From: Burkholderiaceae bacterium
GTDB lineage: Bacteria > Pseudomonadota > Gammaproteobacteria > Burkholderiales > Burkholderiaceae_C
Assembly: GCA_030726195.1 (NCBI GenBank)
Contig: JANREF010000280.1
Coordinates: forward strand, 1 to 16,404
Reading direction: 5' to 3'
DNA length: 16,404 nt
Translations under genes and position numbers: made by a program
Shown here: one piece after another, positions 2,049 to 16,367 of the stretch
Position numbering within the stretch: position 1 is the stretch's first letter
How the letters are laid out: every line of letters begins with the position of its first letter
The notes under the pieces: model-generated
What the model was told of the DNA's origin: nothing
Seen by the model: only the letters and a program-made list of their open reading frames with translations
Database searches by the model: none

Positions 2049-3329
2049 TTAAATACCAATGTAGTTGGGCAGCGCCAAACTGATCGCAGGTATGTAAGTG
2101 ACCAACAGCAAAAACACCAGCAGCACAGACAGCCAAGGCAATGCAGCCTTGGTCACTTGCACCAAACTCATGCCCGTGATGCCACTGGTCACAAAGAGGT
2201 TCAGACCCACCGGTGGCGTCACCATACCGATCTCCATGTTGACCACCATGATCACACCCAGGTGAATGGGATCTATGCCCAACTCGGTGGCAATGGGAAA
2301 CAGTATGGGCGCCAGAATCAAGATGATGCCTGTGGGCTCCATGAAGTTGCCTGCAATCAGCAAAATCACGTTGACCACCAGCAAGAACATCCAAGGCGAC
2401 ATACCAAACGCCACAATGTGCTCGGCAATGGTTTGCGGAATGCGCTCTGTCGTGAGCACATGCGCGAACAACAAAGCGTTGACCACAATAAACATCAACA
2501 TGACCGTGGTTTTGGCGCTTTGCAAAAACACATCTGGCAACTGCTTGAAGGTCAGGTCGCGGTACACAAACACCGCCACCACCAGCGCATACACCGCCGA
2601 CACAGCAGCAGCCTCGGTGGGTGTGAACACGCCGCCATAAATGCCGCCCATGATGATGCCCAGCAGCGCAATGCCCCAGAACGAATCCAAGAACGCTTTG
2701 AACACCTCACCGCGCGATGCTTTGGGTGGGCGGGCCAATTGCAGCTTGCCCGCACGCCACCACACCGCCGCCATCAGCATCAAGCCCAGCAACATGCCTG
2801 GCACCACACCAGCCATGAACAAGCGCCCTACCGACACTTCGGTCACTGCGGCGTAGACCACCATGACGATAGACGGTGGGATCAGAATGCCCAATGTGCC
2901 CGCATTGCAAATCACGCCTGCAGCAAACTCTTTGCTGTAGCCGTTTTTCACCATACCGGCGATCACGATGGAGCCAATGGCCACCACCGTGGCGGGGCTA
3001 GAGGCCGACACGGCCGCAAACAACATACACGCCATGATGGACGCAATGGCCAAGCCGCCGCGCATGTGGCCCACCGATGCAATGGCAAAACGCACCATGC
3101 GCTTGGCCACACCACCTGTGGACATCAAGTTACCGGCCAACACAAAAAATGGAATGGCCAGCAAAGTGTAGTGCTCGCTGGTTTCAAACAACTTGATGGA
3201 CATGGACGCCAGCGAGTCTTGCGAGAAAAACACAATGGTGAGCAAGCTGGACAAACCCAAACTGATGGCCACTGGTATGCCCATGGCCATCAGCGCAAAC
3301 AAGGCTGCAAATAAAACGATGGTGCTCAT
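2049..3329 (-). CDS. dctM: TRAP dicarboxylate transporter, large permease subunit DctM
   Basis: 426 aa, the normal length for DctM. It is hydrophobic throughout, with about a dozen predicted membrane segments. Family signatures include GIPVAISLGLSS near the N-terminus, the IPFFVLAGNLMSTGG stretch at about 58-72, and a late TPPVGLNLFV segment. DctM forms the transport channel and, with DctQ, makes an inner-membrane, ion-gradient-driven importer of carboxylates delivered by the periplasmic protein DctP. The ATG overlaps the dctQ stop codon (ATGA), indicating translational coupling, and an AGGAG site lies upstream inside dctQ. It is the last gene of the operon and is followed by an intrinsic terminator. 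The exact substrate (C4-dicarboxylate or another organic acid) is not determined by this subunit. Confidence 0.95.
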   Translation of the reverse strand: MSTIVLFAALFALMAMGIPVAISLGLSSLLTIVFFSQDSLASMSIKLFETSEHYTLLAIPFFVLAGNLMSTGGVAKRMVRFAIASVGHMRGGLAIASIMACMLFAAVSASSPATVVAIGSIVIAGMVKNGYSKEFAAGVICNAGTLGILIPPSIVMVVYAAVTEVSVGRLFMAGVVPGMLLGLMLMAAVWWRAGKLQLARPPKASRGEVFKAFLDSFWGIALLGIIMGGIYGGVFTPTEAAAVSAVYALVVAVFVYRDLTFKQLPDVFLQSAKTTVMLMFIVVNALLFAHVLTTERIPQTIAEHIVAFGMSPWMFLLVVNVILLIAGNFMEPTGIILILAPILFPIATELGIDPIHLGVIMVVNMEIGMVTPPVGLNLFVTSGITGMSLVQVTKAALPWLSVLLVFLLLVTYIPAISLALPNYIGI

Positions 3330-3874
3330 GAGCGTGCTCCTGTGGTCTCAAACGCATCGTCTTGCGCGCGCAGGTGCATGGCATCAGCGGCTTCGTCTGC
3401 CAACGACAGACTGCTGATGTGACCGGTGACCAATTTGTAAAAGATCTGCAAAAACCGAAAGCCGACCAGGGCGTAGCCAAAGGGCATCACTGCCAGCACC
3501 TTCCAGCGCTCAATCGGCATGTCTTCCAGCTCAATGCCCACCATGGCCATTTTGCTCACGTAAACATAAGAGCCCGACAAAACCAAGCCCACGTAGACCA
3601 TGATCAACAGCACCGACACGATGGCCACGGCGCGCCGGGGACGCTCGGGCAACAACTTGACCAAGGCATCCACGCCAATGTGTGCGCCCACGCGTACGCC
3701 ATAAGAGATGCCAACAAAAATCATGATGGCGAAAAACACCGTGGTGAGCTCAAGTGCCCAGGTGAAGCCGCCGTTGAATACGTAGCGCAACACCACTTGT
3801 GTGAACGACAAGGCCGTCATCAACAGCAGCATCAGCGAAATGACCCACTCTTCAAATTTATCTAATACGCGCAT
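3326..3874 (-). CDS. dctQ: TRAP dicarboxylate transporter, small permease subunit DctQ
   Basis: 182 aa from the ATG at 3872-3874. The preceding codon is GTG and could also start the protein; GGGAG lies 6 nt before the ATG. It has four hydrophobic segments, as expected for DctQ, and the family's conserved late stretch MPIERWKVLAVMPFGYAL. DctQ is the small inner-membrane partner of DctM and docks the binding protein. The gene follows dctP after a 119-nt gap that holds an intrinsic terminator, so it is probably expressed at a lower level than dctP. It overlaps dctM by 4 nt. Its C-terminal tail after the fourth segment is longer than needed for the membrane core and is hydrophilic. Confidence 0.93.
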   Translation of the reverse strand: MRVLDKFEEWVISLMLLLMTALSFTQVVLRYVFNGGFTWALELTTVFFAIMIFVGISYGVRVGAHIGVDALVKLLPERPRRAVAIVSVLLIMVYVGLVLSGSYVYVSKMAMVGIELEDMPIERWKVLAVMPFGYALVGFRFLQIFYKLVTGHISSLSLADEAADAMHLRAQDDAFETTGARS

Positions 3875-3886
3875 CACGCACTCCCG

Positions 3887-3993: not shown

Positions 3994-5263
<1,270 letters not shown>

Positions 5264-6262
5264 ATGACCCGCTTGAATACACAACCGTTGCTGCGCTGGG
5301 TAGCGCCCATTGGCCTATCACTGGCCGCCTTTGCCATGCCAGCCCAAGCCTTTGAACCCGGCAACACCGAATGCATTGCACCTGCGGGCGCTGGCGGCGG
5401 CTGGGACTTCACGTGCCGCCAAGTGGGTAAGACGCTGCAAGACCTGAAACTCATTCCAGGCTCCATGCAAGTGGTGAACAAAGCTGGCGGCGGCGGCGGC
5501 GTCGCGTTTGCCGAAGTGGTGAACAAGCGCAACACCGACAACAACTTGATCGTGGCCGCATCGTCTGCCACGGCCACACGCTTGGCCCAAGGCGCATACC
5601 CAGGCAACAACATGTCTGAAGTGCGTTGGCTGGCGGCTGTGGGCGCCGATTACGGCATCATCGCTGTGGCCAAAGACTCACCCATCAAAACGCTGCCAGA
5701 GCTGTTTGCCAAGATGAAGGCCGACTCCAAAGCGGTGTCGTTTGCGGGTGGCTCAGCCGTGGGCGGCTGGGACCACTTGAAGGTGTTGATGGCGGCACGC
5801 AAAGGCGGCATCAACGATGTGCGCACCATCAAGTACGTGGCCTTTGACGGCGGCGGCGAGGCGGTCACCCAACTGCTTGCTGGCAAGGTTCAGGCCTTTA
5901 CAGGTGACGCATCTGAAGCCAAAGGCTTTGTAGACGCAGGCAGCATCAAGGTGTTGGCCGTATTAGCCCCCGAGCGTTTGGACGGTGACTTCGCCATGTT
6001 CCCAACTGCCAAAGAGCAAGGCGTGAACGTGGTGGGTGCCAACTGGCGCGGCTTCTACGCACCAGGCAAGATGTCTGACGAGGCCTACAACTACTGGGTC
6101 AAGCAGCTGGGCGCAACCTACGACTCCAAGGCTTGGAAGGCCACCATGGCCTCCAACGGCTTGGCACCTCTGAACCTGCGTGGCGACGCCTTTGGCGCGT
6201 TCGTGAAAGAGTCGGTGCAAGACATTCAAGACATTTCCAAAGAAATCGGCTTGATCAAGTAA
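5264..6262 (+). CDS. tctC: Tripartite tricarboxylate transporter binding protein TctC
   Basis: 332 aa. Residues 1-29 are a signal peptide (cleavage after MPAQA). The mature protein shows the TctC/Bug family pattern: a PAGAGGGWDFTCR loop near the N-terminus, the VNKAGGGGGVAF ligand loop, and the conserved FAGGSAVGGWDH and FDGGGEAVTQLLAGKV segments. The mature region fits the family's usual size. It binds a carboxylate (citrate in the founding members; other di- or tricarboxylates in Bug proteins) in the periplasm for TctAB. The start is fixed by GGAG 8 nt upstream. It heads tctC-tctB-tctA; the 121-nt gap to tctB holds two strong hairpins that probably stabilise the tctC message. The ligand is unknown. 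Confidence 0.95.
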   Translation: MTRLNTQPLLRWVAPIGLSLAAFAMPAQAFEPGNTECIAPAGAGGGWDFTCRQVGKTLQDLKLIPGSMQVVNKAGGGGGVAFAEVVNKRNTDNNLIVAASSATATRLAQGAYPGNNMSEVRWLAAVGADYGIIAVAKDSPIKTLPELFAKMKADSKAVSFAGGSAVGGWDHLKVLMAARKGGINDVRTIKYVAFDGGGEAVTQLLAGKVQAFTGDASEAKGFVDAGSIKVLAVLAPERLDGDFAMFPTAKEQGVNVVGANWRGFYAPGKMSDEAYNYWVKQLGATYDSKAWKATMASNGLAPLNLRGDAFGAFVKESVQDIQDISKEIGLIK

Positions 6263-6297
6263 GCGCCGGGCTTGCAACTGCGTTTGCACCACATCGT

Positions 6298-6355
6298 GCA
6301 GCGCGGGCTGGCCCCGCGCTGCGCACAACCACCGCCTGCTGGCCAGTGCGGTGGT
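6298..6355 (+). other. Two tandem perfect hairpins between tctC and tctB
   Basis: Hairpin 1 has a 10-bp perfect stem, GCAGCGCGGG (6298-6307) with CCCGCGCTGC (6313-6322), and a 5-nt loop. Hairpin 2 has an 8-bp perfect stem, ACCACCGC (6328-6335) with GCGGTGGT (6348-6355), and a 12-nt loop that itself contains CTGGCCAG. Neither is followed by a T run, so they are not classical terminators. They sit 35 nt past the tctC stop codon, the usual place for mRNA-stabilising stem-loops after a binding-protein gene. Confidence 0.75.
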
Positions 6356-6383
6356 CTGTCCCCTCCTCACTGAAGCGACCCGT

Positions 6384-6815
6384 ATGAGTGACCGTATTTT
6401 TGGCTCTATTTGCATCGCCTTGGCCGCATTCATGGCCTGGGGTGCCAGCGTGATTGAAGAAAGCTTCATACAAGACCCACTGGGGCCTAAGGCGTTTCCA
6501 ATCGTGATCGCCATCGTGCTGGTCGCTTGCGGTATTGCCATTTGGCTCAAGCCAGACGCGCAACCGCAATGGCCACGCGCTCGCAAACTGATCCAGCTGC
6601 TGTGGGCCATCTCAGCCATGGTGCTATACGCCCAGGCTCTACCTGTTGTTGGCTTTGTCATCGCCACCGCCGCAGCCGCGGGCTTTTTGTCGTGGCAGCT
6701 GGGCGCACAGGTGAAAGAAGCGGCAGTGGCTGGCGTGCTGATTTCCGTAGGCATTTACGCCGTATTTCATTTGGTGCTGGGCTTGTCGCTTGCGCGCGGG
6801 CCACTTGGTTTTTAA
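6384..6815 (+). CDS. tctB: Tripartite tricarboxylate transporter small membrane subunit TctB
   Basis: 143 aa from the ATG at 6384. An in-frame GTG 33 nt upstream overlaps the second intergenic hairpin and is less likely. There are four hydrophobic segments, at about residues 8-24, 33-51, 70-90 and 105-135, matching the TctB (DUF1468) family in length and layout. An early D-P-x-G-P-x-x-F-P stretch is typical of the family. TctB is the small inner-membrane partner of TctA in the TTT transporter. No strong ribosome site is visible before the ATG. It lies 25 nt before tctA in the same operon. Confidence 0.9.
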   Translation: MSDRIFGSICIALAAFMAWGASVIEESFIQDPLGPKAFPIVIAIVLVACGIAIWLKPDAQPQWPRARKLIQLLWAISAMVLYAQALPVVGFVIATAAAAGFLSWQLGAQVKEAAVAGVLISVGIYAVFHLVLGLSLARGPLGF

Positions 6816-6840
6816 ACGCACCCAACCATAAAGATTCGCC

Positions 6841-8379
6841 ATGGACGCGCTGTACTCACTTGCCGATGGTTTTGCCATCGCCCTTACTTGGCAAAACCTA
6901 GGCCTAGCGCTGCTGGGTTGCTTTTTAGGCACGCTCATTGGCGCGCTGCCAGGCCTTGGCCCGTCTAATGGCGTGGCCATTTTGATACCACTGGTGTTCA
7001 GCATTGGCCTGCCCGCTGCACCGTCGTTGATTTTGCTCACCAGCGTCTACTACGGCGCCATGTATGGCGGGCGCATTTCGTCTATTTTGCTGAACATACC
7101 GGGTGACGAGCCCGCCATGATGACCACACTAGACGGTTTTCCCATGGCGCAAAAAGGCCAAGCAGGCGAGGCTTTGGCCATCTCGGGTATTGCATCGTTT
7201 GTCGGCGCGTTTGTGGCCACCTGGGGCCTTGTATTTTTGGCGCCGCAACTGGTAAAAGTCGCACTGCTGTTTGGCCCTGCCGAGTACTTTGCATTGTTTG
7301 CACTCGCGTTTGCAACGCTGGGGGGCTTGTCCAGTAAAAACCAAGCCAAAGCCGCCGTAGCCGCAGCCATTGGTTTGGCCATTGCCATGATTGGTGTAGA
7401 CGGCCAAACCGGTGTGCCACGCTTTGCCTTCAACAATGTGCACTTCTATGACGGCGTTGACTTTTTGGTCGCCATCGTGGGTTTGTTTGCGGTCGCCGAG
7501 GTGTTGGTGTTTATTGAGCACCATGGCACAGGCCACGGCTCTGACGGCGCCACCGCCGCCAAACTGGGCCGCATCACACCGCCTCTGTCCATGGTCAAGC
7601 AAACCTCCGGCGCCATGGGTCGCGGCACCGTGCTGGGCTTTATCGCGGGCGTATTGCCCGGCGCTGGCGCGTCATTGGGCTCCTTCATTGCCTATGCCGC
7701 CGAAAAGAAGTTCTCCAACAAAGACGACACCTTTGGCAAGGGCGATCCGCGCGGTGTGGCTGCACCGGAAGCTGGCAACAACGCCGCTGCGGGCGGTGCG
7801 CTGGTGCCCATGTTGGCGCTGGGTGTGCCAGGCTCAGGCACCACAGCCGTGTTGTTGGCCATGTTGCTGGCGCTGGACATCACACCAGGCCCACTGCTGT
7901 TCACCAAAAACCCCGATGTGGTGTGGGGCCTCATTGCCGCGCTGTTCATTGGCAACGTCATGTTGCTGGCCATGAACATTCCCATGGTGGGCTTGTTCAT
8001 GCGTGTCTTGGCCATTCCCAGCAAATACCTCATGCCCGCCGTCGCCATGATTTCCTTTGTGGGTATCTACGGCATTTCCGGCTCCATCTTTGACTTGATG
8101 GTCATGATCGCCTTTGGTGTGCTGGGTTGGGTCTTACGCAAACTGGAGGTGCCGCAGGTCCCCGTTATTTTGGGACTGCTGCTGGGCACGCAAATGGAAA
8201 ACAACTTGCGCCGCGCCATGACCATTTCTGACGGCGACTTGTGGGCTTTGGTGGAGTCCCCCTTGGCCATTGGCTTGTGGGCAACCGCCATCATTGGGTT
8301 TATATTGCCCATGATCCTCGGGCGTTTTGTACGCGTGCCCGCGCCCCAACAGGTGCAAGACACAACCCCCAGCGCCTAG
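6841..8379 (+). CDS. tctA: Tripartite tricarboxylate transporter large membrane subunit TctA
   Basis: 512 aa, the standard TctA length. It is highly hydrophobic, with about 12 membrane segments in two related halves. The first-half signature GALPGLGPSNG (about residues 36-46) and its second-half counterpart GVLPGAGASLGS are the two family pore motifs. The conserved G-x-R-I-S-S-I-L-L-N-I-P-G-D-E-P segment and the APEAGNNAAAGGALVP stretch are both present. It is the ion-gradient-driven channel that imports the carboxylate delivered by TctC. It is the last structural gene of tctCBA; the regulator gene tctD starts 60 nt downstream beyond a hairpin. Confidence 0.96.
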   Translation: MDALYSLADGFAIALTWQNLGLALLGCFLGTLIGALPGLGPSNGVAILIPLVFSIGLPAAPSLILLTSVYYGAMYGGRISSILLNIPGDEPAMMTTLDGFPMAQKGQAGEALAISGIASFVGAFVATWGLVFLAPQLVKVALLFGPAEYFALFALAFATLGGLSSKNQAKAAVAAAIGLAIAMIGVDGQTGVPRFAFNNVHFYDGVDFLVAIVGLFAVAEVLVFIEHHGTGHGSDGATAAKLGRITPPLSMVKQTSGAMGRGTVLGFIAGVLPGAGASLGSFIAYAAEKKFSNKDDTFGKGDPRGVAAPEAGNNAAAGGALVPMLALGVPGSGTTAVLLAMLLALDITPGPLLFTKNPDVVWGLIAALFIGNVMLLAMNIPMVGLFMRVLAIPSKYLMPAVAMISFVGIYGISGSIFDLMVMIAFGVLGWVLRKLEVPQVPVILGLLLGTQMENNLRRAMTISDGDLWALVESPLAIGLWATAIIGFILPMILGRFVRVPAPQQVQDTTPSA

Positions 8380-8397
8380 AGCCAAGTCACCCCACAC

Positions 8398-8420
8398 GCT
8401 GCCAGCGCGACTCTGGCAGC
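8398..8420 (+). other. Hairpin between tctA and tctD
   Basis: Perfect 8-bp stem GCTGCCAG (8398-8405) with CTGGCAGC (8413-8420) and a 7-nt loop. It lies 18 nt after the tctA stop and 19 nt before the tctD start. It is followed by GGGCCC rather than T residues, so it is not a typical terminator. It may attenuate or process the transcript between the transporter and regulator genes. Confidence 0.65.
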
Positions 8421-8439
8421 GGGCCCACCTGAGCCGCCC

Positions 8440-9114
8440 ATGTATTTGTTGCTTGTTGAAGACGAGGCCTCCTTGGCAGAAGGGCTGGTTGGTTTGCTCA
8501 CCGCCAGAGGCCACAAGGTAGAGTGGGCCAGCCACGGCGCCATGGCGCTACAAGCCGCGCAAACGCACCGCTTTGACGTGGTGGTGCTGGACTTGGGCCT
8601 ACCCGACATCAGCGGCATGCGCGTACTGGCCACACTGCGCGAGCAGCACGCCGACATACCGGTGCTCATTTTGTCTGCGCGTGACCAGGCCATAGACAAA
8701 ATCGATGCCATCAACGCAGGCGCCGACGACTATTTGAGCAAGCCCTTTGACGCCGCCGAACTAGAAGCGCGCTTGTTCGCACTCCTACGCAGACGCGGCG
8801 GCGCAGCCTCGGCCAAGCTCGATTGCGCAGGCGTGAGCTTTGACGCCAACACGCGGCGCTTCCACTGCCAAGGACACACGCTCAACGTTAGCCCGCGCGA
8901 ACACCTGGCGCTGCTGGCTTTGGTGCAAGCACAAGGTACACCACTGAGCCGCCAAGAGTTGTTTGACCGCGTGTTCGTCACCGACGACGACATTGCGCAC
9001 GACGCACTCGACGTGGTGCTGTATCGCCTGCGCAAACGCTTGGACGAGCTGGGCGTGGCCATTCGCAATGTGCGCGGCATTGGCTTTTACTTAGAGGCCA
9101 GCCACACGCCGTGA
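8440..9114 (+). CDS. tctD: TctD-type response regulator (OmpR family)
   Basis: 224 aa. The receiver domain (about 1-115) has the acidic pair E7/D8, phospho-acceptor D51 (in VVLDLGLPD), S79 (in LILSARD) and K101 (in LSKPFD). The C-terminal half (about 125-220) is an OmpR/PhoB winged helix, with the family ending R-N-V-R-G-I-G-F-Y-L. The gene overlaps tctE by 4 nt and lies directly after tctCBA. In Salmonella and Bordetella such TctD/BctD proteins control the adjacent tricarboxylate transporter. I infer it controls the tctC promoter at 4972-5263 and possibly this operon. The start ATG at 8440 has only a weak ribosome site. Confidence 0.92.
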   Translation: MYLLLVEDEASLAEGLVGLLTARGHKVEWASHGAMALQAAQTHRFDVVVLDLGLPDISGMRVLATLREQHADIPVLILSARDQAIDKIDAINAGADDYLSKPFDAAELEARLFALLRRRGGAASAKLDCAGVSFDANTRRFHCQGHTLNVSPREHLALLALVQAQGTPLSRQELFDRVFVTDDDIAHDALDVVLYRLRKRLDELGVAIRNVRGIGFYLEASHTP

Positions 9115-10604
9115 GCACACTCGACAAAGCCGCAACGCTGGGTCGACGCTCCTTGCGCGCACGCCTGCTGGTATTGCTCATGCCAGCCCTGGTCATCATC
9201 ACCTTGGTGGAATTCACCTTGTCGTACCGCTTGGCACAGCGAACGATCGACGAGGCTTATGACCGCAGCCTGCAAGGTGCCGTGCAAGCACTGAGCTTGG
9301 CCACACGCTACGACGACACGGGCTTTGCAGTTGACAAGCCCTTCAAGCTGCTCAGCTATGTGCAAAGCCACTCGCGCGGGACGGTGTTTTTTAATGTGCG
9401 CACCAGCGACGGCCTCATGAGCGCGGGCTTTGCAGGCTTGGACTTCCCCTGGCCCGCACAGGCGCCACTGGACGAGGTGCTGCTGGGCGAAGGCAGCTAC
9501 TTTGAGCAACACCTGCGCATGGCGGCCATGCGCCGAGAAGTTGCGCCCGCCAGTGCCAATCAACCCGCCTTGTATGTCGAGCTGTTGGTCGCCGAAGACC
9601 TGGCACCACGCCTAGCGTATTTGCGCGGCTTTGCGCTACAAACAGCGCTGCGCGATGGCGTACTACTGCTGCTGACGTCGCTGATTTTGGTGTGGATTGT
9701 GCGCAATGGCTTGGCACCCCTGAAAGAGTGGTCGCAACTGGTGAAGAGCCAATCCAGTGACAACTTGGCACCGCTGCCATTGAACCAGTCGCTGCCCGAC
9801 GAGGCCAGGCCATTGGTCGAGGCTTTGAACTTTCACATCTCACGCAGCCAACAACAACAACGCCAGCACCAACAATTTTTAGACAATGCCTCTCACCAGC
9901 TGCGCACACCACTTGCCGTGCTGAAAACGCACATTGCGTGGGCGCGCGAACAATACAAAGACAACGCCGCGCTGGCGGTGTTTTTACCAAAGTTTGAAGC
10001 ACAAGTCGACACCGCCACCCAGCACGCCAATCAAATGCTGCAATTGGCCCGCCTTGAAGGCACCGGCGCAGGCACCGTGCGCGCACAGGCCACGCCTGTC
10101 ATAGCCGCCGCGCGCGACGCACTCATGGCGCTGCAACCGCTGGCCAGGGCACGCGATATTGACGCGGGACTGCGCTGCGAAGCGGGCGTGAACGCCGATA
10201 CATGCGTGTGGATAGACGCCAACTTGCTTCGCCAAGTGTTGGAGAACCTACTGGACAACGCCATCAAGTACGGACGCGCCAACGGCCAGATCACCGTGGT
10301 GCTGTCGCGCACCAACACAACCACCGAGGCACCAAAGCAACTCTGTATCTGCGTTGAAAACGACGGCGATGTCATCGATGCCGAAACCTTTGCCCACATG
10401 GGCGAGCGTTTCTACCAAGCCGATCAGCAAAGCAAATGGGGCGCGGGTTTGGGTTTGTCTATCGTCAAGCTCATACTCGACAAAGCGGGCAGCAGCATCC
10501 ACTTCACACCCAACGCCAACGCTCAAGGCTTGCGCGCCACGTTTTGCTTGCCCATCAACGAGCGTGCCGCCCAGCCCGCTGTTGACGCCACCCACAAGGC
10601 CTGA
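9111..10604 (+). CDS. tctE: TctE-type sensor histidine kinase
   Basis: 497 aa with a GTG start overlapping the tctD stop codon (GTGA). There is a membrane segment at about 18-40, a periplasmic domain at about 41-180 of the 2CSK_N/TctE type, and a second membrane segment at about 183-198, with no long HAMP linker visible. The phospho-acceptor is H262 (in NASHQLRTPL). The N box includes N383 (in LLDNAIKYG), and the G2 box GAGLGLS is at 444-450. The G1 box reads E-N-D-G-D-V-I instead of the usual D-x-G-x-G, so the adenine-contacting Asp is Asn and the second Gly is Val; similar N-x-G variants occur in active kinases. It senses carboxylate outside the cytoplasm and phosphorylates TctD. The next gene, a TctC paralogue, starts 2 nt after the stop. 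Confidence 0.93.
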   Translation: MSTLDKAATLGRRSLRARLLVLLMPALVIITLVEFTLSYRLAQRTIDEAYDRSLQGAVQALSLATRYDDTGFAVDKPFKLLSYVQSHSRGTVFFNVRTSDGLMSAGFAGLDFPWPAQAPLDEVLLGEGSYFEQHLRMAAMRREVAPASANQPALYVELLVAEDLAPRLAYLRGFALQTALRDGVLLLLTSLILVWIVRNGLAPLKEWSQLVKSQSSDNLAPLPLNQSLPDEARPLVEALNFHISRSQQQQRQHQQFLDNASHQLRTPLAVLKTHIAWAREQYKDNAALAVFLPKFEAQVDTATQHANQMLQLARLEGTGAGTVRAQATPVIAAARDALMALQPLARARDIDAGLRCEAGVNADTCVWIDANLLRQVLENLLDNAIKYGRANGQITVVLSRTNTTTEAPKQLCICVENDGDVIDAETFAHMGERFYQADQQSKWGAGLGLSIVKLILDKAGSSIHFTPNANAQGLRATFCLPINERAAQPAVDATHKA

Positions 10605-10606
10605 CC

Positions 10607-11635
10607 ATGCACACCCTTGAACGCTTTGTCACCCAAAGCCTAGCAACTGCGGCGCTGTTACTGATGGCCACACAGGCCTGCGCAGCCTCGGGTGCAGCAC
10701 CGACTCACACACCCGCGTTTGCAACTTACCCCACCAAGCCCGAGTGCGTCGCACCGGCCAAACCCGGCGGTGGCTTTGACCTCACATGCCGCTTGGCGGC
10801 GGCCGCACTCGAAGACCAGCTGCCCGTGCCCATGCAGGTCACATTTTTGCCAGGCGGTATCGGGGCCGCGGCCTACCAGCTGTTCACCAGCCAGCGCGCC
10901 ACCGACAACAACGCGCTGGTCGCGCATTCGTCGGGCTCGCTGCTCAACATTGCCACCGGCAAATTTGGCTCGCTCGGTGGCGACGATGTGCGCTTTGTCG
11001 CCTCCGCAGGTGCCGACTACGGCGCGGTGGTGGTGGCCAACGCGTCCAAGCTCAACAACCTGCAAGACCTCATGGCCAAGCTGCGCGGCAAGGCCTCACG
11101 CGTGGTGTTTGGCGGCGGCGGCTCGGTGGGCAGCCAAGATTGGGTGAAGGCCGCCTTGGTGATGCGCGCCGCAGGCGGCAGCCCCAAGGGCATGCGCTAT
11201 GTGTCGTTTGATGGCGGCGGGGAAGCCTTGGCCAGCTTGGACAACGGCAACATCGAGGTGTACACAGGCGACGTGTCAGAGCTGCGTGCACACTTGCGCT
11301 CGGGCAAATTCAGGGTCTTGGCCGTGTTGTCTGAGGCCCGCCTAGACGGCGCATTGGCAGACTTGCCGACCGCCAAAGAACAAGGCGTGGATGTGACCTG
11401 GGCCTCGTTCCGAGGGTTTTATATGGGCAAGCATGTTGACCCACAGGCCTACCGTTTTTACGTCAACGCATTCAACAGCGCCTACGCCAGCAGCCAGTTT
11501 GCGTTGCTGCGCGCCGACAAAGGCTTGTCTGAGTTTTCCCTCTCAGGTCAGGCGTACCACGACTATGTGCTCGCACAAATCAAACAGTTGCGCGACCTGG
11601 TGCGCCAAGCGGGCCTGCTCACGCCCGGACAATAA
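10607..11635 (+). CDS. Orphan TctC/Bug-type solute-binding protein, co-transcribed with tctDE
   Basis: 342 aa. Residues 1-26 form a signal peptide ending ACA; the cysteine there does not fit a lipobox. The mature part is clearly paralogous to the TctC at 5264-6262: the first loop reads ECVAPAKPGGGFDLTCR against ECIAPAGAGGGWDFTCR, and the FDGGGEAL and TAKEQGVDV segments are also shared. The rest has diverged widely, including the second ligand loop, which lacks the glycine run. It starts 2 nt after the tctE stop, so it belongs to the regulatory operon and has no permease genes of its own. It may be a high-affinity alternative binding protein for TctAB or a periplasmic sensing partner for TctE. 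In Bordetella pertussis the TTT binding protein BctC is reported to take part in signalling through the BctDE system. Confidence 0.93.
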   Translation: MHTLERFVTQSLATAALLLMATQACAASGAAPTHTPAFATYPTKPECVAPAKPGGGFDLTCRLAAAALEDQLPVPMQVTFLPGGIGAAAYQLFTSQRATDNNALVAHSSGSLLNIATGKFGSLGGDDVRFVASAGADYGAVVVANASKLNNLQDLMAKLRGKASRVVFGGGGSVGSQDWVKAALVMRAAGGSPKGMRYVSFDGGGEALASLDNGNIEVYTGDVSELRAHLRSGKFRVLAVLSEARLDGALADLPTAKEQGVDVTWASFRGFYMGKHVDPQAYRFYVNAFNSAYASSQFALLRADKGLSEFSLSGQAYHDYVLAQIKQLRDLVRQAGLLTPGQ

Positions 11636-11685
11636 AAGCCTGGATCCTAGACGCCGCACGGCAACTGGCAACTAGCAGCTTGCAA
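11636..11685. other. Convergent gap between the two orphan binding-protein genes
   Basis: 50 nt separating the stop codons of the convergent tctC-like and dctP-like genes. It contains three spaced copies of GCAACT-like sequence (GGCAACT, GGCAACT, TTGCAACT). No hairpin followed by a T run is visible on either strand, so termination here is not explained. Confidence 0.5.
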
Positions 11686-12714
11686 CTAATGCTTGCGCAG
11701 CGCTTTGTAAACTTGGTCTAACCACACGCTGCCTATGCGCTGCTCTAAATCGTCGTAGGCGGGTTGCACCGCTTGGCGCAAGGCGGCGCGGTTGTCATCG
11801 CTCAAGGTGTGGATTTGCGTGGTGCCTGCATCACGCAAGGCTTGTAGCGACTTGTCGTTTTCTTCTTGTGCAATCGCGTTGCCATAAGCCAAAGCATCGG
11901 CCAACGCGCCCTTGACCAACTGGCGCTGAGAGACTGACAGGGCAGTCCAAAAATGAGGGTTGGTCACAACGGCATAACCGATGTAACCGTGCTGGGTGAG
12001 GCTGAAATGGCTTTGCACCGTGTTCATGCCTTGGGTCCAAAAGTTAGACGGTGGGTTTTCGGTGCCATCCACGACCTGCTGGGCCAGCGCGCGTTGCGTG
12101 TCACTGAAGGGCAACACCACAGGCTGCGCGCCCAGGGCCAACATTTGCGCGGCAATCACATGCGACGACTGCACGCGCATGCGCAAGCCCACAAAGTCGC
12201 TGGGCCGCAGCAAGGGCTTGTTGGCGCTCATTTGCTTGAAGCCATTGTCCAAATACCCCAAGCCCAACAGCTGCACGCGCTCCAGCTTGCGCAGCAACTG
12301 ACGCCCTACGGAGCCTTTGGTGATTTTGGCCACATCGCCAGTCGACCTGAACAAAAACGGCAAATCGAAAATTTCAAACTCGGGCACGCCCATGCGACCA
12401 AACTTAGACAGCGACGGCGCAATCATCTCAACCGCACCCAGCTGCAATGCCTGCACCTCATCGGTATCGCCGTACAACTGCCCGCGCGGGTAAATGACCA
12501 CCGCCATCGTGCCCTCGGAGCGCTCGCGCACGAGTTGCTGAAAACGCTGAACCGCCAAACCCTTGGGCGTATCTGTGGCCACCACATGCGAAAACCGTAT
12601 GGTGAGCACAGGCGAGGCCGCATGGCCTAGTTGAGGGCACACACACGCAGCCAGCAGCCCCGCAACAGCGGCAACGCCGGCCCACCGATGCACACAATAG
12701 ATTCGCTTGAACAT
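11686..12714 (-). CDS. Orphan DctP-type TRAP solute-binding protein
   Basis: 342 aa from the ATG at 12712-12714; an upstream alternative start would place non-signal sequence ahead of the signal peptide. Residues 1-23 form a hydrophobic leader ending L21-A22-A23 before C24, a good lipobox, though a normal cleavage after GHA (30-32) is also possible. The mature protein follows the transport DctP at 3994-4971: SHVVATDTPKG, IAPSLSKFG, ligand arginine R180 (in GLRMRVQSS), and VVDGTENPPSN with Pro where DctP has Trp. There are no dctQM genes beside it. It is divergent from the DctS-like kinase gene and convergent with the TctC paralogue. It may feed DctQM with another ligand, or act as a ligand sensor for the kinase; the placement favours sensing, but this is inference. 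Confidence 0.92.
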   Translation of the reverse strand: MFKRIYCVHRWAGVAAVAGLLAACVCPQLGHAASPVLTIRFSHVVATDTPKGLAVQRFQQLVRERSEGTMAVVIYPRGQLYGDTDEVQALQLGAVEMIAPSLSKFGRMGVPEFEIFDLPFLFRSTGDVAKITKGSVGRQLLRKLERVQLLGLGYLDNGFKQMSANKPLLRPSDFVGLRMRVQSSHVIAAQMLALGAQPVVLPFSDTQRALAQQVVDGTENPPSNFWTQGMNTVQSHFSLTQHGYIGYAVVTNPHFWTALSVSQRQLVKGALADALAYGNAIAQEENDKSLQALRDAGTTQIHTLSDDNRAALRQAVQPAYDDLEQRIGSVWLDQVYKALRKH

Positions 12715-12843
12715 ACCCGCTATGCTAGCGGGCAATGCCAGCGCCAACCAGCCCACCCTCAAGCGATACGCAACAAACCCCTGGGTTTGACTTCAACTTG
12801 CTGCAAGGCCCCGCCTTGCCAGCGAGCGAACGCGTGCGATTAC
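12715..12843. promoter_or_regulatory. Divergent control region with two perfect palindromes
   Basis: 129 bp between the dctP-like start and the chosen kinase start. Palindrome 1 is CCCGCTA-TGC-TAGCGGG (12716-12732), 1 nt from the dctP-like ATG. Palindrome 2 is CAAACCC-CT-GGGTTTG (12774-12789). No convincing -35/-10 pair was found on either strand. The region is also open in a frame different from that of the kinase from an ATG at 12735 to a stop at 12861-12863 (42 codons), which may be a remnant of the missing kinase N-terminus. Confidence 0.55.
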
Positions 12844-14295
12844 ATGGTGGCCATATCGATTGAGGCGGCCGTGGCCAACGTGGTGCCCAGTTGGTTTATG
12901 AACAACCACCGCTTGCGCCTGATCAAACCCGGCGACGAGGCCACCAGTGCCGCCGAGCTCAGCGAGCCACGGTTTTGGGCACGACTGGACTTGCCCGGTG
13001 TGGACTTGGCCATTGATGTGCAAACCCTCACGCCACAGGTGTCCAGCGTGCCGCGTTTGTTTTTGCTGGTGGCGTTGGTGTTTTTAGCGGGCATGTTTGC
13101 CGCCCTGGTCGCGCTGCGGCGCGACTTCAGCAAGCGCCAGCGCATTGAAGCCCAGCTCCAAGCGCAAGTCGCACTGCGCAAGGCCATGGAGAACGCCGTC
13201 ACCGTGGGTTTGCGTGCATGGGACTTGGAGGGGCGCATTTTGTATGTCAACCACGCGTTTTGCCACCTGGTGGGCTTTGACGCGCACGAGCTGCTTGGGC
13301 GCAGCGCGCCACTGCCCTACTGGCCCACCGCTCAAACCGACGAGCTCAACACCGTGCACCGCGACTTGATTGCACAAGGCACCAAGGACGCAGGCGTGGA
13401 GGTACAGTTCCAACACAAAAATGGCCGCTTGGTCGATGTGCTGATTCACGAGGCACCGCTGCTGGACACCCACAACACCCAACTGGGTTGGATGAGCTCT
13501 GTGATCGACATCTCCGAGCGCAAACGCAACCAGGCCATGGCCGCCAAGCAACAAGAGCGTCTAGAGGCCTCAGGGCGATTGGTCGCCATGGGCGAGGTCG
13601 CCTCAACACTGGCCCATGAGCTCAACCAGCCATTGGGCGCACTCAGCGGCTTTGCGAACGGCTTGCTCAACCGATTACGAGGCGGGCGTATCGCGATTGA
13701 AGACATAGCACCCGTTGTCGAGCGCATGGACGCCCTGTCAGACAAGGCCGGGCGCATCATTCAACGCGTCAACGCCTTTGCCAGACGCTTAGAAATGTCG
13801 CGCCAACGCGTTGAGCTGGGTCAGTTTGTGCGCGAGACGGTTGCCAACGCACGCATGGGCTCTAACGTCAAGCTGCACATCAAACCGCAAGGTCACACCA
13901 TGTGGGTAGAAGCCGACCCCTTGCTGCTAGAACACGCCATCAGCAACGTGGTGCGCAATGCATCAGACTGGGCACAACGCGGCGCGTTTGCGCCACGCAT
14001 CAGCATCGCCTTTGTACTGGAGCGTGAGGCGGACACGCCGCGCGTGGGCATTGTCATTGGCGACAACGGCCCCGGCGTGCCTGAGCAGGAAATGGGCGAC
14101 ATCTTCAACGCTTTTCACACCAACAAACCCGAAGGCATGGGCATGGGCTTGGCCATTTGCCGCTCGGTCATGGAGGCCCACCACGGCAGCGTAGACGTGG
14201 CGGCAGACCCCGCGCTAGGCGGTGCACAATTCACACTGTGGTTGCCGCTGTTATCGCCAACATCAGGGCGTGCCACCGCTGCTGCCCAGCCCTAG
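12844..14295 (+). CDS. dctS: DctS-type sensor histidine kinase, apparently lacking its N-terminal sensor region
   Basis: 483 aa from the ATG at 12844; the frame is open further upstream, but that sequence is antisense to the dctP-like gene and shows no kinase features. Residues 1-70 resemble only the last part of a DctS periplasmic domain (VPSWF, LPGVDLAIDV). A single membrane segment follows at about 72-93, then a PAS domain at about 112-225 (DLEGRILYVNHAFCHLVG). The phospho-acceptor is H258 (in AHELNQPL), the N box has N372 (in VVRNASDW), G1 is GDNGPGVP, and G2 is GMGMGLAI. The catalytic core looks intact and belongs to the DctS/FixL group. Intact family members are over 600 aa, with an N-terminal membrane segment and a full periplasmic domain, both absent here. 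It is followed by its likely partner regulator. Confidence 0.82.
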   Translation: MVAISIEAAVANVVPSWFMNNHRLRLIKPGDEATSAAELSEPRFWARLDLPGVDLAIDVQTLTPQVSSVPRLFLLVALVFLAGMFAALVALRRDFSKRQRIEAQLQAQVALRKAMENAVTVGLRAWDLEGRILYVNHAFCHLVGFDAHELLGRSAPLPYWPTAQTDELNTVHRDLIAQGTKDAGVEVQFQHKNGRLVDVLIHEAPLLDTHNTQLGWMSSVIDISERKRNQAMAAKQQERLEASGRLVAMGEVASTLAHELNQPLGALSGFANGLLNRLRGGRIAIEDIAPVVERMDALSDKAGRIIQRVNAFARRLEMSRQRVELGQFVRETVANARMGSNVKLHIKPQGHTMWVEADPLLLEHAISNVVRNASDWAQRGAFAPRISIAFVLEREADTPRVGIVIGDNGPGVPEQEMGDIFNAFHTNKPEGMGMGLAICRSVMEAHHGSVDVAADPALGGAQFTLWLPLLSPTSGRATAAAQP

Positions 14296-14336
14296 TCCTT
14301 GTACTTTTGCTTGTACTTGTCCTACTTCTACCCACC

Positions 14337-15014
14337 ATGACCGACAACACCCCAGCAACACCCACCGAGCCGCTCATTGCCGCGCACGTACATGTTGTGG
14401 ACGACGACGCCGACTTTCGCGACGGCTTGGCATGGTTGCTGGATTCACGCGGCCATGCCGTCAAAACATGGTCTGGCGGCGATGCGTTGATAGCCACTCT
14501 GGGCCACAATGCGCTCGCCGCTCAAGCGGTATTCAATGCCTCGCCATGTGACGTGGTGCTGCTAGACATTCGCATGGCACCACTCTCAGGCCTGGCCACC
14601 TTTGAGACCTTACAAGCGGTGGACTGTCCATGGCCCGTGTTGTTTCTCACCGGTCATGGCGACGTGGGCATGGCGGTGCAAGCCGTCAAGGCTGGTGCTT
14701 GGGACTTTTTAGAAAAGCCATTTCAAAACAACGTGCTGGTTGACAAGGTAGAAGCTGCGCTCGCAGGTGCACAGGCCAACAGCGCGCACATACGGCACAC
14801 GCAACGCCTGCGCGCGGCTTTCGCGCGCCTAAGCCCAAGAGAGCGCGATGTACTTGATGAGCTCATCAAAGGCAGCTACAACAAAAACATTGCCGATCAC
14901 TTGGGCATCACCCCACGCACGGTGGAGTTTCACAGAGCCAATATTTTTGAAAAGATGGGCGTGTCATCGGCCATAGAGTTGGCACATCAACTGGGCAAGA
15001 GCGGCCTGCGTTAA
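14337..15014 (+). CDS. dctR: DctR-type response regulator (FixJ/LuxR family)
   Basis: 225 aa from the ATG at 14337, 41 nt after the kinase stop; the frame is open upstream, but that part overlaps the kinase gene and is not receiver-like. The receiver domain (about 16-135) has the acidic triplet D22-D24, phospho-acceptor D77 (in VVLLDIRM), T105 (in LFLTGHGD) and K127 (in FLEKPF). The C-terminal LuxR-type helix-turn-helix (about 160-222) contains LSPRERDVL and GITPRTVEFHRANIFEKMG. This is the FixJ/DctR architecture, which activates C4-dicarboxylate TRAP transporter genes in Rhodobacter and relatives. Likely targets are dctPQM and the orphan dctP-like gene, by inference from location. The spacer before it holds a repeated TTGTACTT and no clear ribosome site. 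Confidence 0.9.
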   Translation: MTDNTPATPTEPLIAAHVHVVDDDADFRDGLAWLLDSRGHAVKTWSGGDALIATLGHNALAAQAVFNASPCDVVLLDIRMAPLSGLATFETLQAVDCPWPVLFLTGHGDVGMAVQAVKAGAWDFLEKPFQNNVLVDKVEAALAGAQANSAHIRHTQRLRAAFARLSPRERDVLDELIKGSYNKNIADHLGITPRTVEFHRANIFEKMGVSSAIELAHQLGKSGLR

Positions 15015-15180: not shown

Positions 15181-15738
15181 TTACCAGCGCATGGCACGCG
15201 GACCCAGCCAAGCACCCACGGCCACGCAGGCACCAATGCCCAGCACGTACCACACAGCGATGTAGCCGGCATCAAACACAGGGCAATACAGGCTGTAAAC
15301 CGCAGCGCCTAGGCCGCCCGCAATCGCACCAGACACAGCGCCCGCGCGGCGCAACTGGGTGGGCGCACAACGCTGGGCGTGCCACATCAAACCCAACCAA
15401 ACCGGCAAGGCCAAAGCCGCAATGCTCACCGAGCAAGTGCTCCACATGCCACCCATGGCCTGGCTGAGCACGGGCGTGTCGGTACCCAACAAGGCCCACA
15501 GCCACACCAAAGCCGTCGGTGCCGCTACCGCCAACACGCGCGCGCGACGCGCATTGCTGGGCTTTAACAGCTGCGGCCACAACCACAAACCCACTGCAGC
15601 AGTCAGCAAGCCCAGCGCAATTTTGGCGATGAACGCCGGCGTTTGCATGGTCGCCAACAGGTTGGTCAACACACCCCAAAACACCAGCAACAAAGCCATG
15701 CTCCATCCAACCCAGCTTCGGAGGCCGGTCTGACCCAA
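15181..15738 (-). CDS. NrsF-family (DUF1109) membrane anti-sigma protein, main reading frame
   Basis: 185 aa if begun at the TTG at 15736-15738. There are six hydrophobic segments, and the family ending (CP near 152, AVWYVLGIGA, AWLGPRAMRW) is clear. The expected DUF1109 N-terminus is missing from this frame and is found in another frame just upstream (15787-15739), so the gene looks frameshifted. Removing one base near 15737-15739 would give a normal 201-aa protein starting MNTNDLITAL. NrsF proteins hold an ECF sigma factor of the SigF type at the membrane. Cys102 and Cys152 are 50 residues apart, the same spacing as the two functional cysteines (131 and 181, as I recall) of Caulobacter NrsF. 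It is downstream of and overlaps the sigma gene. Confidence 0.8.
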   Translation of the reverse strand: MGQTGLRSWVGWSMALLLVFWGVLTNLLATMQTPAFIAKIALGLLTAAVGLWLWPQLLKPSNARRARVLAVAAPTALVWLWALLGTDTPVLSQAMGGMWSTCSVSIAALALPVWLGLMWHAQRCAPTQLRRAGAVSGAIAGGLGAAVYSLYCPVFDAGYIAVWYVLGIGACVAVGAWLGPRAMRW

Positions 15739-15787
15739 GCGCCGCGTCGTTGGTGGCCAATGCCGTTATCAAATCATTGGTGTTCAT
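15739..15787 (-). pseudogene. Out-of-frame N-terminal piece of the nrsF-like gene
   Basis: Starting at the ATG at 15785-15787, which overlaps the end of the sigma gene by 14 nt, the translation begins MNTNDLITALATNDAAL. This is the expected start of a DUF1109/NrsF protein. The frame then leaves the family, while the neighbouring frame picks up the correct sequence (GQTGLRSWVGWS...). The join is at GCG-CTT-GGG-TCA on the minus strand; dropping one T restores a continuous gene. It could be a sequencing error, a real mutation or, less likely, a translational frameshift. Confidence 0.7.
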
Positions 15788-16334
15788 ATGTTCTACCTAG
15801 CAAACTGGCAAGCTTGCGCAACCCTCTGTGCGTATTCACCTTCACGGCGGACTCGGTCATGTTCAGCTGCACTGCGGCCTCGGCCACAGATATGCCCTGA
15901 AACTTGACCAACATAATGACCTCTCGTTGCTGCGGCGACAACTGCGCCATCACCGCTTGCAAATCTCGCTTGGCTTCAAAGGCGTCAATCGACGACTCGC
16001 CAACCAAAGCACTTTCATCCTCGTCGCTCAAACCCTGTTCGTTGAGGCGGCCCACGCGACGCCAAAAATCAATCAGCTTGTAGCGCGCAATGGCGTGCAT
16101 CCACGCCGTCAATGGCTGCGATGTGTCGTAGGTGTGGCGCTTGGTATGCACGGCCAACAACACATCCTGCACCAAGTCCTCCACGTCGCCATCTTGGCCG
16201 GTTAGTCTGCGCCGCAAATAGGCGCGTACCAATTTGGCCATTCGCTCCAGCAAACGCTTGTATGCGCCTTGGTCACCCTGTTGCGCTTTCGCAAACAAAG
16301 TCCACAGCTCGTTCTCAATGGATTCAAGTGTCAT
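15774..16334 (-). CDS. ECF sigma factor of the SigF type (partner of NrsF)
   Basis: 186 aa from the ATG at 16332-16334; a TTG 15 nt upstream is in frame but unlikely. Sigma region 2 spans about 25-95 (DVEDLVQDVLL, then LTAWMHAIARYKLIDFWRR). Region 4 spans about 130-180 (LSPQQREVIMLVKFQGISVAEAA, then a helix-turn-helix with ESAVKVNTHRGLRKL). No sigma region 1 or 3 is present, which defines the ECF class. The stop codon lies inside the start of the NrsF-like gene, indicating coupled translation. The promoter upstream matches the SigF consensus and places the transcript start near the ATG, so the mRNA is probably leaderless, which explains the absence of a ribosome site. SigF-type factors answer heavy metals such as chromium, cadmium or copper in known species; the signal here is unknown. 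Confidence 0.92.
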   Translation of the reverse strand: MTLESIENELWTLFAKAQQGDQGAYKRLLERMAKLVRAYLRRRLTGQDGDVEDLVQDVLLAVHTKRHTYDTSQPLTAWMHAIARYKLIDFWRRVGRLNEQGLSDEDESALVGESSIDAFEAKRDLQAVMAQLSPQQREVIMLVKFQGISVAEAAVQLNMTESAVKVNTHRGLRKLASLLGRTYEHQ

Positions 16335-16341
16335 CTGAGAG

Positions 16342-16367
16342 TTCGACAAATAAGGGGCGGAAGTTAC
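16342..16367 (-). promoter_or_regulatory. Candidate SigF-type autoregulated promoter of the sigma gene
   Basis: On the minus strand GTAACT (16367-16362) is followed by exactly 16 nt and then CGAA (16345-16342). This is one mismatch from the form reported for Caulobacter SigF promoters (GTAACC-N16-CGAA). CGAA ends 7 nt before the ATG at 16334. Confidence 0.7.

Follow-up and report, generated by a model that had tools for sequence, protein, structure and literature searches.

What is the role of a solute-binding protein (SBP) that is encoded beside a sensor kinase and has no permease gene next to it? This question is raised twice by contig JANREF010000280.1 (C280) of the Burkholderiaceae bacterium assembly GCA_030726195.1, a draft genome of 2.09 Mb in 346 contigs that is 87% complete; the whole stretch of 16,404 nucleotides that was analyzed is referred to below as the window. 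It carries a tripartite ATP-independent periplasmic (TRAP) transporter system (dctPQM) and a tripartite tricarboxylate transporter (TTT) system (tctCBA), together with the two-component genes tctDE and dctSR and with a second TctC and a second DctP protein, here termed TctC2 and DctP2. The reading that we favor, with a probability of about 0.65, is that TctC2 is, and DctP2 was, the ligand sensor of a three-component system with the adjoining kinase, in a locus into which a TTT cassette would have been inserted and in which dctS would have lost its sensor part.

Binding proteins beside the sensor kinases

Genes of the window were called from a list of open reading frames (ORFs) and their Pfam profile matches, which bear out the inventory of transporter genes, tctDE and second binding proteins given in the original prediction. 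The genes of the two putative sensing branches, apart from dctS, are the following:

8440..9114, plus strand: tctD, OmpR-type response regulator (PF00072 and PF00486)
9111..10604, plus strand: tctE, sensor kinase of 2CSK_N-HisKA-HATPase architecture (PF08521, PF00512, PF02518)
10607..11635, plus strand: tctC2, permease-less TctC adjoining tctE, proposed co-sensor (PF03401)
11686..12714, minus strand: dctP2, second DctP, proposed co-sensor of DctS (PF03480, E 6.9e-86)
about 14337..15014, plus strand: dctR, LuxR-type response regulator (PF00072 and PF00196 in the ORF 14157-15014)

The tctD and tctE genes overlap by 4 nt, and the ATG of tctC2 lies 2 nt past the tctE stop, as had already been read from the ORFs, which places a TctC-family gene beside a TctDE-type pair (gene order, Pfam). 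No permease gene lies directly beside tctC2, and tctBA is preceded by another gene, tctC1. The ORFs likewise agree with the earlier description of dctP2 as divergent from dctS and convergent with tctC2, with 50 nt between the two. Both reading frames are intact and both match their families. The draft genome encodes six DctP proteins and only two TctC proteins, both of the latter in the window; since there are only two, tctC2 does not belong to a large Bug expansion, an origin that was considered and ruled out.

In TctE, the 2CSK_N domain spans residues 27-169 and is flanked by predicted transmembrane segments at 19-37 and 179-197 (Pfam, hydropathy). Liganded TctC2 would dock on this periplasmic domain and, once docked, would set the phosphorylation of TctD, which would then switch on tctC1BA; in the relatives, DctP2 may act likewise on DctS and DctR for the adjoining dicarboxylate carrier.

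DctP2 forms a clade linked to dctS

Relatives of DctP2 were sought in 299 genomes of the family, 82 of which, the window's included, have matches with E values of at most 1e-80. The resulting DctP tree of 78 rows comprises 33 DctP2 rows (the window, all 31 other genomes with at least 52% identity to it, and G009 from outside the sample), 15 rows of DctP1, the binding protein of the window's TRAP system, and 30 canonical rows; TctC and DctP matches shorter than 700 bp, TctE matches shorter than 850 bp and DctS matches shorter than 600 bp were dropped from the trees. DctP2 is recovered as one clade of 33 rows with a Shimodaira-Hasegawa-like approximate likelihood ratio (SH-aLRT) support of 100, and DctP1 as a separate single clade of 15 rows (support 100) in which dctQ lies within 400 bp in 15/15 cases. 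For dctP2, dctQ is within 400 bp in 0/33 loci, the nearest dctM being about 1.7 kb away, and dctS lies within about 1.1 kb in 32/33, the 33rd locus (L196) being cut by a contig end. The two genes are divergent in 31 of these 32 loci, and L193 has dctP2-dctS-dctR on one strand.

The DctS partners of DctP2 also group together (32 rows, support 94). Over 30 loci (without L076, L190 and L196), DctS distances correlate with DctP2 distances at r 0.82, a value as high being reached in none of 2000 permutations. Within the 12 loci that have a canonical TRAP permease, the correlation of DctS is 0.94 with DctP2 against 0.77 with the transport DctP, and within the nine loci that have dctP1QM it is 0.91 with DctP2 against 0.85 with DctP1.

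Bacillus DctB has a lipoprotein anchor; with a lipobox pattern in only 2/33 DctP2 starts, such an anchor was rejected as a feature of the clade. A plasmid search gave three DctP matches of 40-51% identity, and the two stretches inspected carry no annotation.

The dctP2 and dctS genes start divergently, with a gap of only 20 bp between their start codons (window 12712-12737), in which the following element can be read:

12716..12732, no strand: 7-bp inverted repeat with TGC at its center, between the two start codons

The symmetric TATGCTA at the core of the repeat is shared by 16/32 dctP2-dctS loci, with TATTAT seen by eye in others, and resembles a two-way -10 element. The 15-bp core of the repeat is matched exactly nowhere else in the window, and a further operator in the window was rejected on this ground; when three mismatches were allowed, the core gave three matches, two of which are the two strands of one site, where 0.56 would be expected.

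The transporter beside dctP2 varies

Four kinds of carrier were distinguished beside dctP2, namely two TRAP lineages, the symporter DctA and the TTT permease TctBA. The dctP1QM genes adjoin dctP2 in nine loci (G011 and eight others), where dctP2 is the first gene of dctP2-dctP1-dctQ-dctM, and a canonical dctPQM (PbQM) does so in 12, which brings the two TRAP permease kinds together to 21 of the 33 loci. The dctA gene takes this place in seven loci, with dctS in view in six of them; it was called by PF00375 in L190, L191, L195 and L198 and by tblastn in the other three, and the DctA proteins of the six other loci are 86-94% identical to that of L190. A DctA symporter needs no binding protein. 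The tctBA genes adjoin dctP2 in one locus (L180), none of these carriers is in the stretch in two (L174, L193), the neighbor is unseen in L076 (contig start), and in the window it is the TTT cassette. Mapped on the 30-row DctS tree, the carrier labels need eight changes, or six over the 28 rows that remain without 'none'.

Because the linkage to dctS is constant and the adjoining transporter varies, the sensor and the binding protein look like a conserved unit. From gene order and trees, we consider it rather likely that DctP2-DctS-DctR of Burkholderiales is a transporter-independent sensor cassette, with DctP2 as its dedicated receptor subunit, that is found beside four kinds of carrier, and that permease-less TctC with TctDE is its TTT parallel. 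The nearest solved chains to DctP2 are named DctP, the first being 4mx6 (C4-dicarboxylate).

Some of these loci show further peculiarities of gene order. In L180 (7252-10386), tctB and tctA come after dctP2 on the same strand without an intervening tctC, so that a TRAP-family SBP stands beside a TTT permease. In L193 (5976-8130), dctP2 has a TctC-family neighbor on the opposite strand, and the dctA adjoining dctP2 in L198 (5837-7182) is split into two adjacent ORFs. In L201 (4024-10232), a canonical dctP has divergent dctSR on one side and a full tctC-tctB-tctA on the other, with no dctQM in the stretch.

Permease-less TctC proteins beside tctDE

Named genomes were scanned with a query alignment built from five proteins resembling TctC2. 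Among the best 80 of 585 confirmed stretches, tctA lies behind tctC in 79; the exception is L090 (G005), Burkholderiaceae bacterium isolate FCJ.38, which is also the best tctC2 match among the named genomes listed. In the family, 59/299 genomes have TctC2 matches at E 1e-50. The TctC tree has 88 rows, of which 45 are permease-linked, 39 are permease-less and adjacent to tctDE, and 4 are of TctC1 type; from the 79 other named loci it drew on 21, with Bug-like rows excluded, and the TctE tree took 15 named loci.

Permease-less TctC proteins beside tctDE are found in several separate places of the tree, and 33 rows of them form one clade (SH-aLRT 95); the labels permease-less and permease-linked need five to six changes, counts of a kind that does not tell gain from loss. 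Within the clade, 33/33 genes lie beside tctE, 32 of them on the same strand and at gaps of 15-498 bp, so that the adjacency to the kinase that the original prediction expected to be conserved is found for both families. Only two of the fetched stretches contain tctA (L235, at 3.9 kb in a second tct locus, and L265, at 1.8 kb), and 3/33 are cut by an end. A further Bug-like tctC lies within 450 bp of tctD in 24/33 loci (L234, L242-L250, L253-L262 and others), which gives these 24 two binding proteins around one kinase pair. In L235 (3298-14904, genome G201), a permease-linked tctCBA with tctDE stands side by side with a permease-less tctDE-tctC. Long open frames that suggested a TctE-TctC fusion were rejected as such, in G012 by an upstream part unlike TctE, and in L234, L242, L244-L246, L248, L253, L254, L258 and L260 by the different frames of tctE and tctC.

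TctC2 of the window and of G005 form a pair of their own (support 100) inside permease-linked TctC proteins that are mostly alpha- and gammaproteobacterial, apart from the clade of 33, and the corresponding two TctE proteins group with Burkholderiales TctE on a long branch. The expectation that the second binding proteins would form clades of their own was accordingly borne out for the 33 DctP2 rows and for 33 permease-less TctC rows; the TctC2 pair of the window and G005 stands outside the latter. The general design that had been proposed, a paralogue beside the kinase and separate from the permease, is favored by this comparison of relatives.

Apparent loss of the sensor region of dctS

In the window, dctS is found in two parts:

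12735..12831, plus strand: dctS start remnant of about 30 codons, in a frame that differs from the rest (weak tblastn to DctS starts; frame translation)
12832..14295, plus strand: dctS remainder, with the end of the periplasmic domain, one transmembrane segment, PAS, HisKA and HATPase (open frame 12631-14295; Pfam)

The start region, from about 12735 on, is weakly similar by tblastn to the beginning of DctS in L075 (E 0.057) and in L171 (E 0.007), and strong DctS homology begins at about 12832, in the other frame, at residue 214 of the L075 frame. About 170 codons present in the relatives are missing, and with them transmembrane segment 1 and the greater part of the periplasmic domain; by hydropathy, the window DctS frame has one transmembrane segment, against at least two in 13/13 relatives examined, and its cytoplasmic part keeps PAS, HisKA and HATPase (Pfam). 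The other 31 DctP2-linked dctS open frames have at least 666 codons, except those of L190 (475) and L194 (535), two short frames beside dctP2 that may reflect a contig end or a lesion. When the draft genome was searched with the N-terminal part of an intact relative, it returned the piece remaining in the window and one weak match on contig C27 (26%, E 1.3e-5).

Either dctS is broken in the window or the draft assembly is wrong there. Since dctS has lost its sensor region, the DctP2-DctS branch is probably dead in the genome of the window, unless the assembly is at fault. The claim that each transporter has a matching two-component pair thus stands for TctDE, and fails in this assembly for dctS, which lacks about 170 codons and changes frame.

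Origin of the paired locus

The transporter genes of the window are the following:

2049..3329, minus strand: dctM, TRAP large permease subunit (PF06808, E 2.6e-123)
3326..3877, minus strand: dctQ, TRAP small permease subunit (PF04290, E 3e-25)
3994..4971, minus strand: dctP1, transport binding protein of the window TRAP system (PF03480; member of the 15-row DctP1 clade)
5264..6262, plus strand: tctC1, binding protein of the TTT system (PF03401), directly 5' of tctB and tctA
6351..6815, plus strand: tctB (PF07331)
6841..8379, plus strand: tctA (PF01970, E 3.1e-149)

By position, both second binding proteins lack a permease, as had been claimed, but dctP2 shares the strand of dctP1QM and, as noted above, heads dctP2-dctP1-dctQ-dctM in nine relatives, where the divergent dctSR genes precede it. 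Both sets of genes occur in one locus in only 1/10 genus genomes, five of which reach at least 90% completeness with at most 5% contamination, and the two modules occur apart in the relatives compared; dctP2 was not found in 8/10 genus genomes, including all five of high quality. In G005, a genome of the same genus, the order is dctMQP1-tctC1BA-tctDE-tctC2, without dctP2-dctSR there, and tctDE-tctC2 is kept at 59-65% identity. The alignment of G002 with the window spans dctMQP1 and then only some 30 codons at the start of tctC1 (L085, 7154-7243), apparently the scar of a lost TTT cassette. G009 has, on a short contig, dctP2-dctSR with a dctS frame of 720 codons, and carries tctC1BA elsewhere with another, divergent tctDE.

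The co-occurrence of both systems is best explained by insertion of a TTT cassette. In the simplest order of events, the ancestral arrangement would have been dctSR-dctP2-dctP1QM, the cassette tctC1BA-tctDE-tctC2 would have been inserted between dctP2 and dctP1QM, and the dctSR branch would then have decayed in the genus of the window. The pairing of the two systems, which had been singled out as the most striking feature of the locus, is not a conserved trait, and it was rejected as a conserved unit after the genus searches. A purposeful paired design, with two transporters and two reporter SBPs in one locus, has all its elements in the window, but with its occurrence in 1/10 genus genomes, its modules apart in relatives and one kinase truncated, we regard it as very improbable.

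Alternatives to a sensing role

Several points weigh against a sensing role for the two proteins. DctP2 and TctC2 could instead be spare transport SBPs that share the permease of DctP1 or TctC1 and widen its substrates, their adjacency to kinases being a matter of operon history. In 21/33 loci, dctP2 is followed by another dctP and dctQM, and could there still serve the permease; in the window, tctC2 lies downstream of tctC1BA on the same strand. It is not supported that DctP2 would be unable to serve any TRAP permease for want of one: DctM is encoded elsewhere in 10/10 searched genomes that have DctA, TctBA or none of these carriers beside DctP2, so that pairing with a permease at a distance is possible. 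A point in favor of a sensing role is that DctP2 looks surplus in G076, where a DctP-family gene is found near each DctM gene. In G063, this is so for two of three DctM genes, and the third has no SBP in its stretch, which begins at a contig start; in G210, dctP1QM is on the contig of dctP2, about 8 kb away. DctP2 (342 aa) moreover keeps many residues common to transport SBPs, among them R180, which we take to be the carboxylate-binding arginine, Q182, S223 and N224. This explanation is nevertheless unlikely, given that DctA adjoins dctP2 in 7/33 loci and TctBA in one, that the constant element is linkage to dctS and not to a permease type, and that, of the columns with 90% conservation or more among 40 SBPs encoded next to dctQ, 16 are retained in no more than 20% of the 33 DctP2 proteins; these columns may or may not lie on the permease interface.

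Both proteins might also be functionless remnants of canonical dctSR-dctPQM and tctDE-tctCBA loci that lost their own permeases in a small genome, a possibility that we hold tentatively and that fits well for DctP2 in the genome of the window alone. The disrupted dctS, the genus genomes in which dctP2 was not found, the tctC1 scar in G002 and the tctA behind tctC in 79 of the best 80 named TctC2-like loci are in line with it, but both frames are intact with their family matches kept, tctDE-tctC2 is retained in G005, and permease-less tctDE-tctC forms a large clade elsewhere. A different objection is that the dctS lesion could be a misassembly, the window being a draft contig. An assembly or binning error, which would leave the DctP2-DctSR sensor intact in the living organism, would suit a source genome so fragmented and incomplete, and seems somewhat doubtful against the result of the search for the missing piece, the open frames in which dctR and the rest of dctS lie, and the other genus members without a dctP2 match. 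The taxa of the trees and the trees themselves belong, finally, to the points against the favored reading. TctE and TctC2 group with different taxa, so TctDE and TctC2 may not be co-inherited; the nine dctP1QM loci do not discriminate, because DctP2 distances follow those of DctP1 (0.94) as well as those of DctS (0.91); the DctP2 rows were picked at 52% identity or more, with 12 of the lower-identity DctP matches sampled; and the trees come from quick searches and contain some long branches (a program warning for the DctP tree).

Other features of the window

A ChrR-type cupin gene and an amine-oxidase/flavin adenine dinucleotide (FAD) gene flank the TRAP operon (2-2009), and genes for an NrsF-like anti-sigma factor and an extracytoplasmic function (ECF) sigma factor follow dctR (15181-16349); in G005, ecf and nrsF follow tctC2, in an orientation opposite to that in the window. 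Rfam and tRNA scans of the window found nothing, and a scan of the window for promoters and terminators gave counts no different from the shuffled level.

Comparison with known systems

The sensing design is already in print for BctC, Bacillus DctB and CuaD, and as a suggestion for orphan Bug proteins, in the available parts of PMC5812351, PMC6978683 and PMC10384115. As far as the excerpts of PMC5812351 and PMC9602780 report, citrate-loaded BctC acts on BctE and is required for induction, and about ten SBP-activated kinases have been characterized (PMC9602780). Bacillus DctB, DctS and DctA probably constitute a tripartite sensor (excerpt of PMC6978683), and CuaD, an additional SBP, is reported to bind the kinase CuaS (excerpt of PMC10384115). 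In Ralstonia eutropha, 64.1% of 154 TctC genes are near a regulator, and a regulatory role was suggested (excerpt of PMC5812351). A proteobacterial DctP2-DctSR cassette was not found in the open-license PubMed Central (PMC) literature, including the accessible part of PMC4268860, a search outside which most subscription papers lie; nor did that open-license literature yield a description of a DctP clade that stays linked to DctSR with carriers of the TRAP, DctA and TTT kinds.

Orphan TctC (Bug) proteins, of which some bacteria have more than 100 per genome, are a long-standing puzzle for which a sensing role has been suggested (PMC5812351, in the part available). The permease-less TctC clade beside tctE and the dctP2-dctA loci offer clean test cases, because gene order there makes a transport role unlikely. 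If DctP2 acts as proposed, the co-sensor principle of Bacillus would be extended to proteobacterial DctSR. The greater value lies in the DctP2 cassette of the relatives, more than in the window. The comparison across genomes supports the general design, and does not support the special pairing.

By their arrangement, the loci of the window resemble the BctC, DctB and CuaD systems. With BctC/BctDE of Bordetella pertussis they would share a tctDE-type pair that has a TctC protein as signaling partner, and tctC lies directly behind tctE in many Burkholderiales loci; whereas BctC feeds both permease and kinase, the window has a second, permease-less TctC behind tctE and TctC1 for the permease. In Rhodobacter capsulatus, one DctP serves the TRAP permease. 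The kinase, regulator and TRAP system of its DctSR-DctPQM are homologous to those considered here, and dctSR is divergent from dctP as in L078-L080; in contrast, DctP2 is a separate clade that never stands directly before dctQ in 33 loci. CuaD/CuaSR of Ruminiclostridium cellulolyticum, according to the available text, likewise has a second SBP beside a two-component pair while another SBP feeds the transporter, but these are proteins of an ATP-binding cassette (ABC) transporter with a sugar ligand. The likeness to DctB/DctS/DctA of Bacillus subtilis lies in an accessory protein that a DctS kinase requires along with DctA, and seven relatives have dctP2 beside dctA. Bacillus DctB is a DctP-family binding protein, and Bacillus DctS belongs to another kinase family, which is CitA/DcuS-like. 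That system is Gram-positive, whereas the kinase here is a Rhodobacter-type DctS with PAS and the window lacks an adjoining dctA. Linkage of a DctP-family protein to dctSR independently of a TRAP permease is common to the DctP2 loci (32/33 beside dctS), and the intact membrane-spanning kinase of such a system is absent from the assembled genome of the window.

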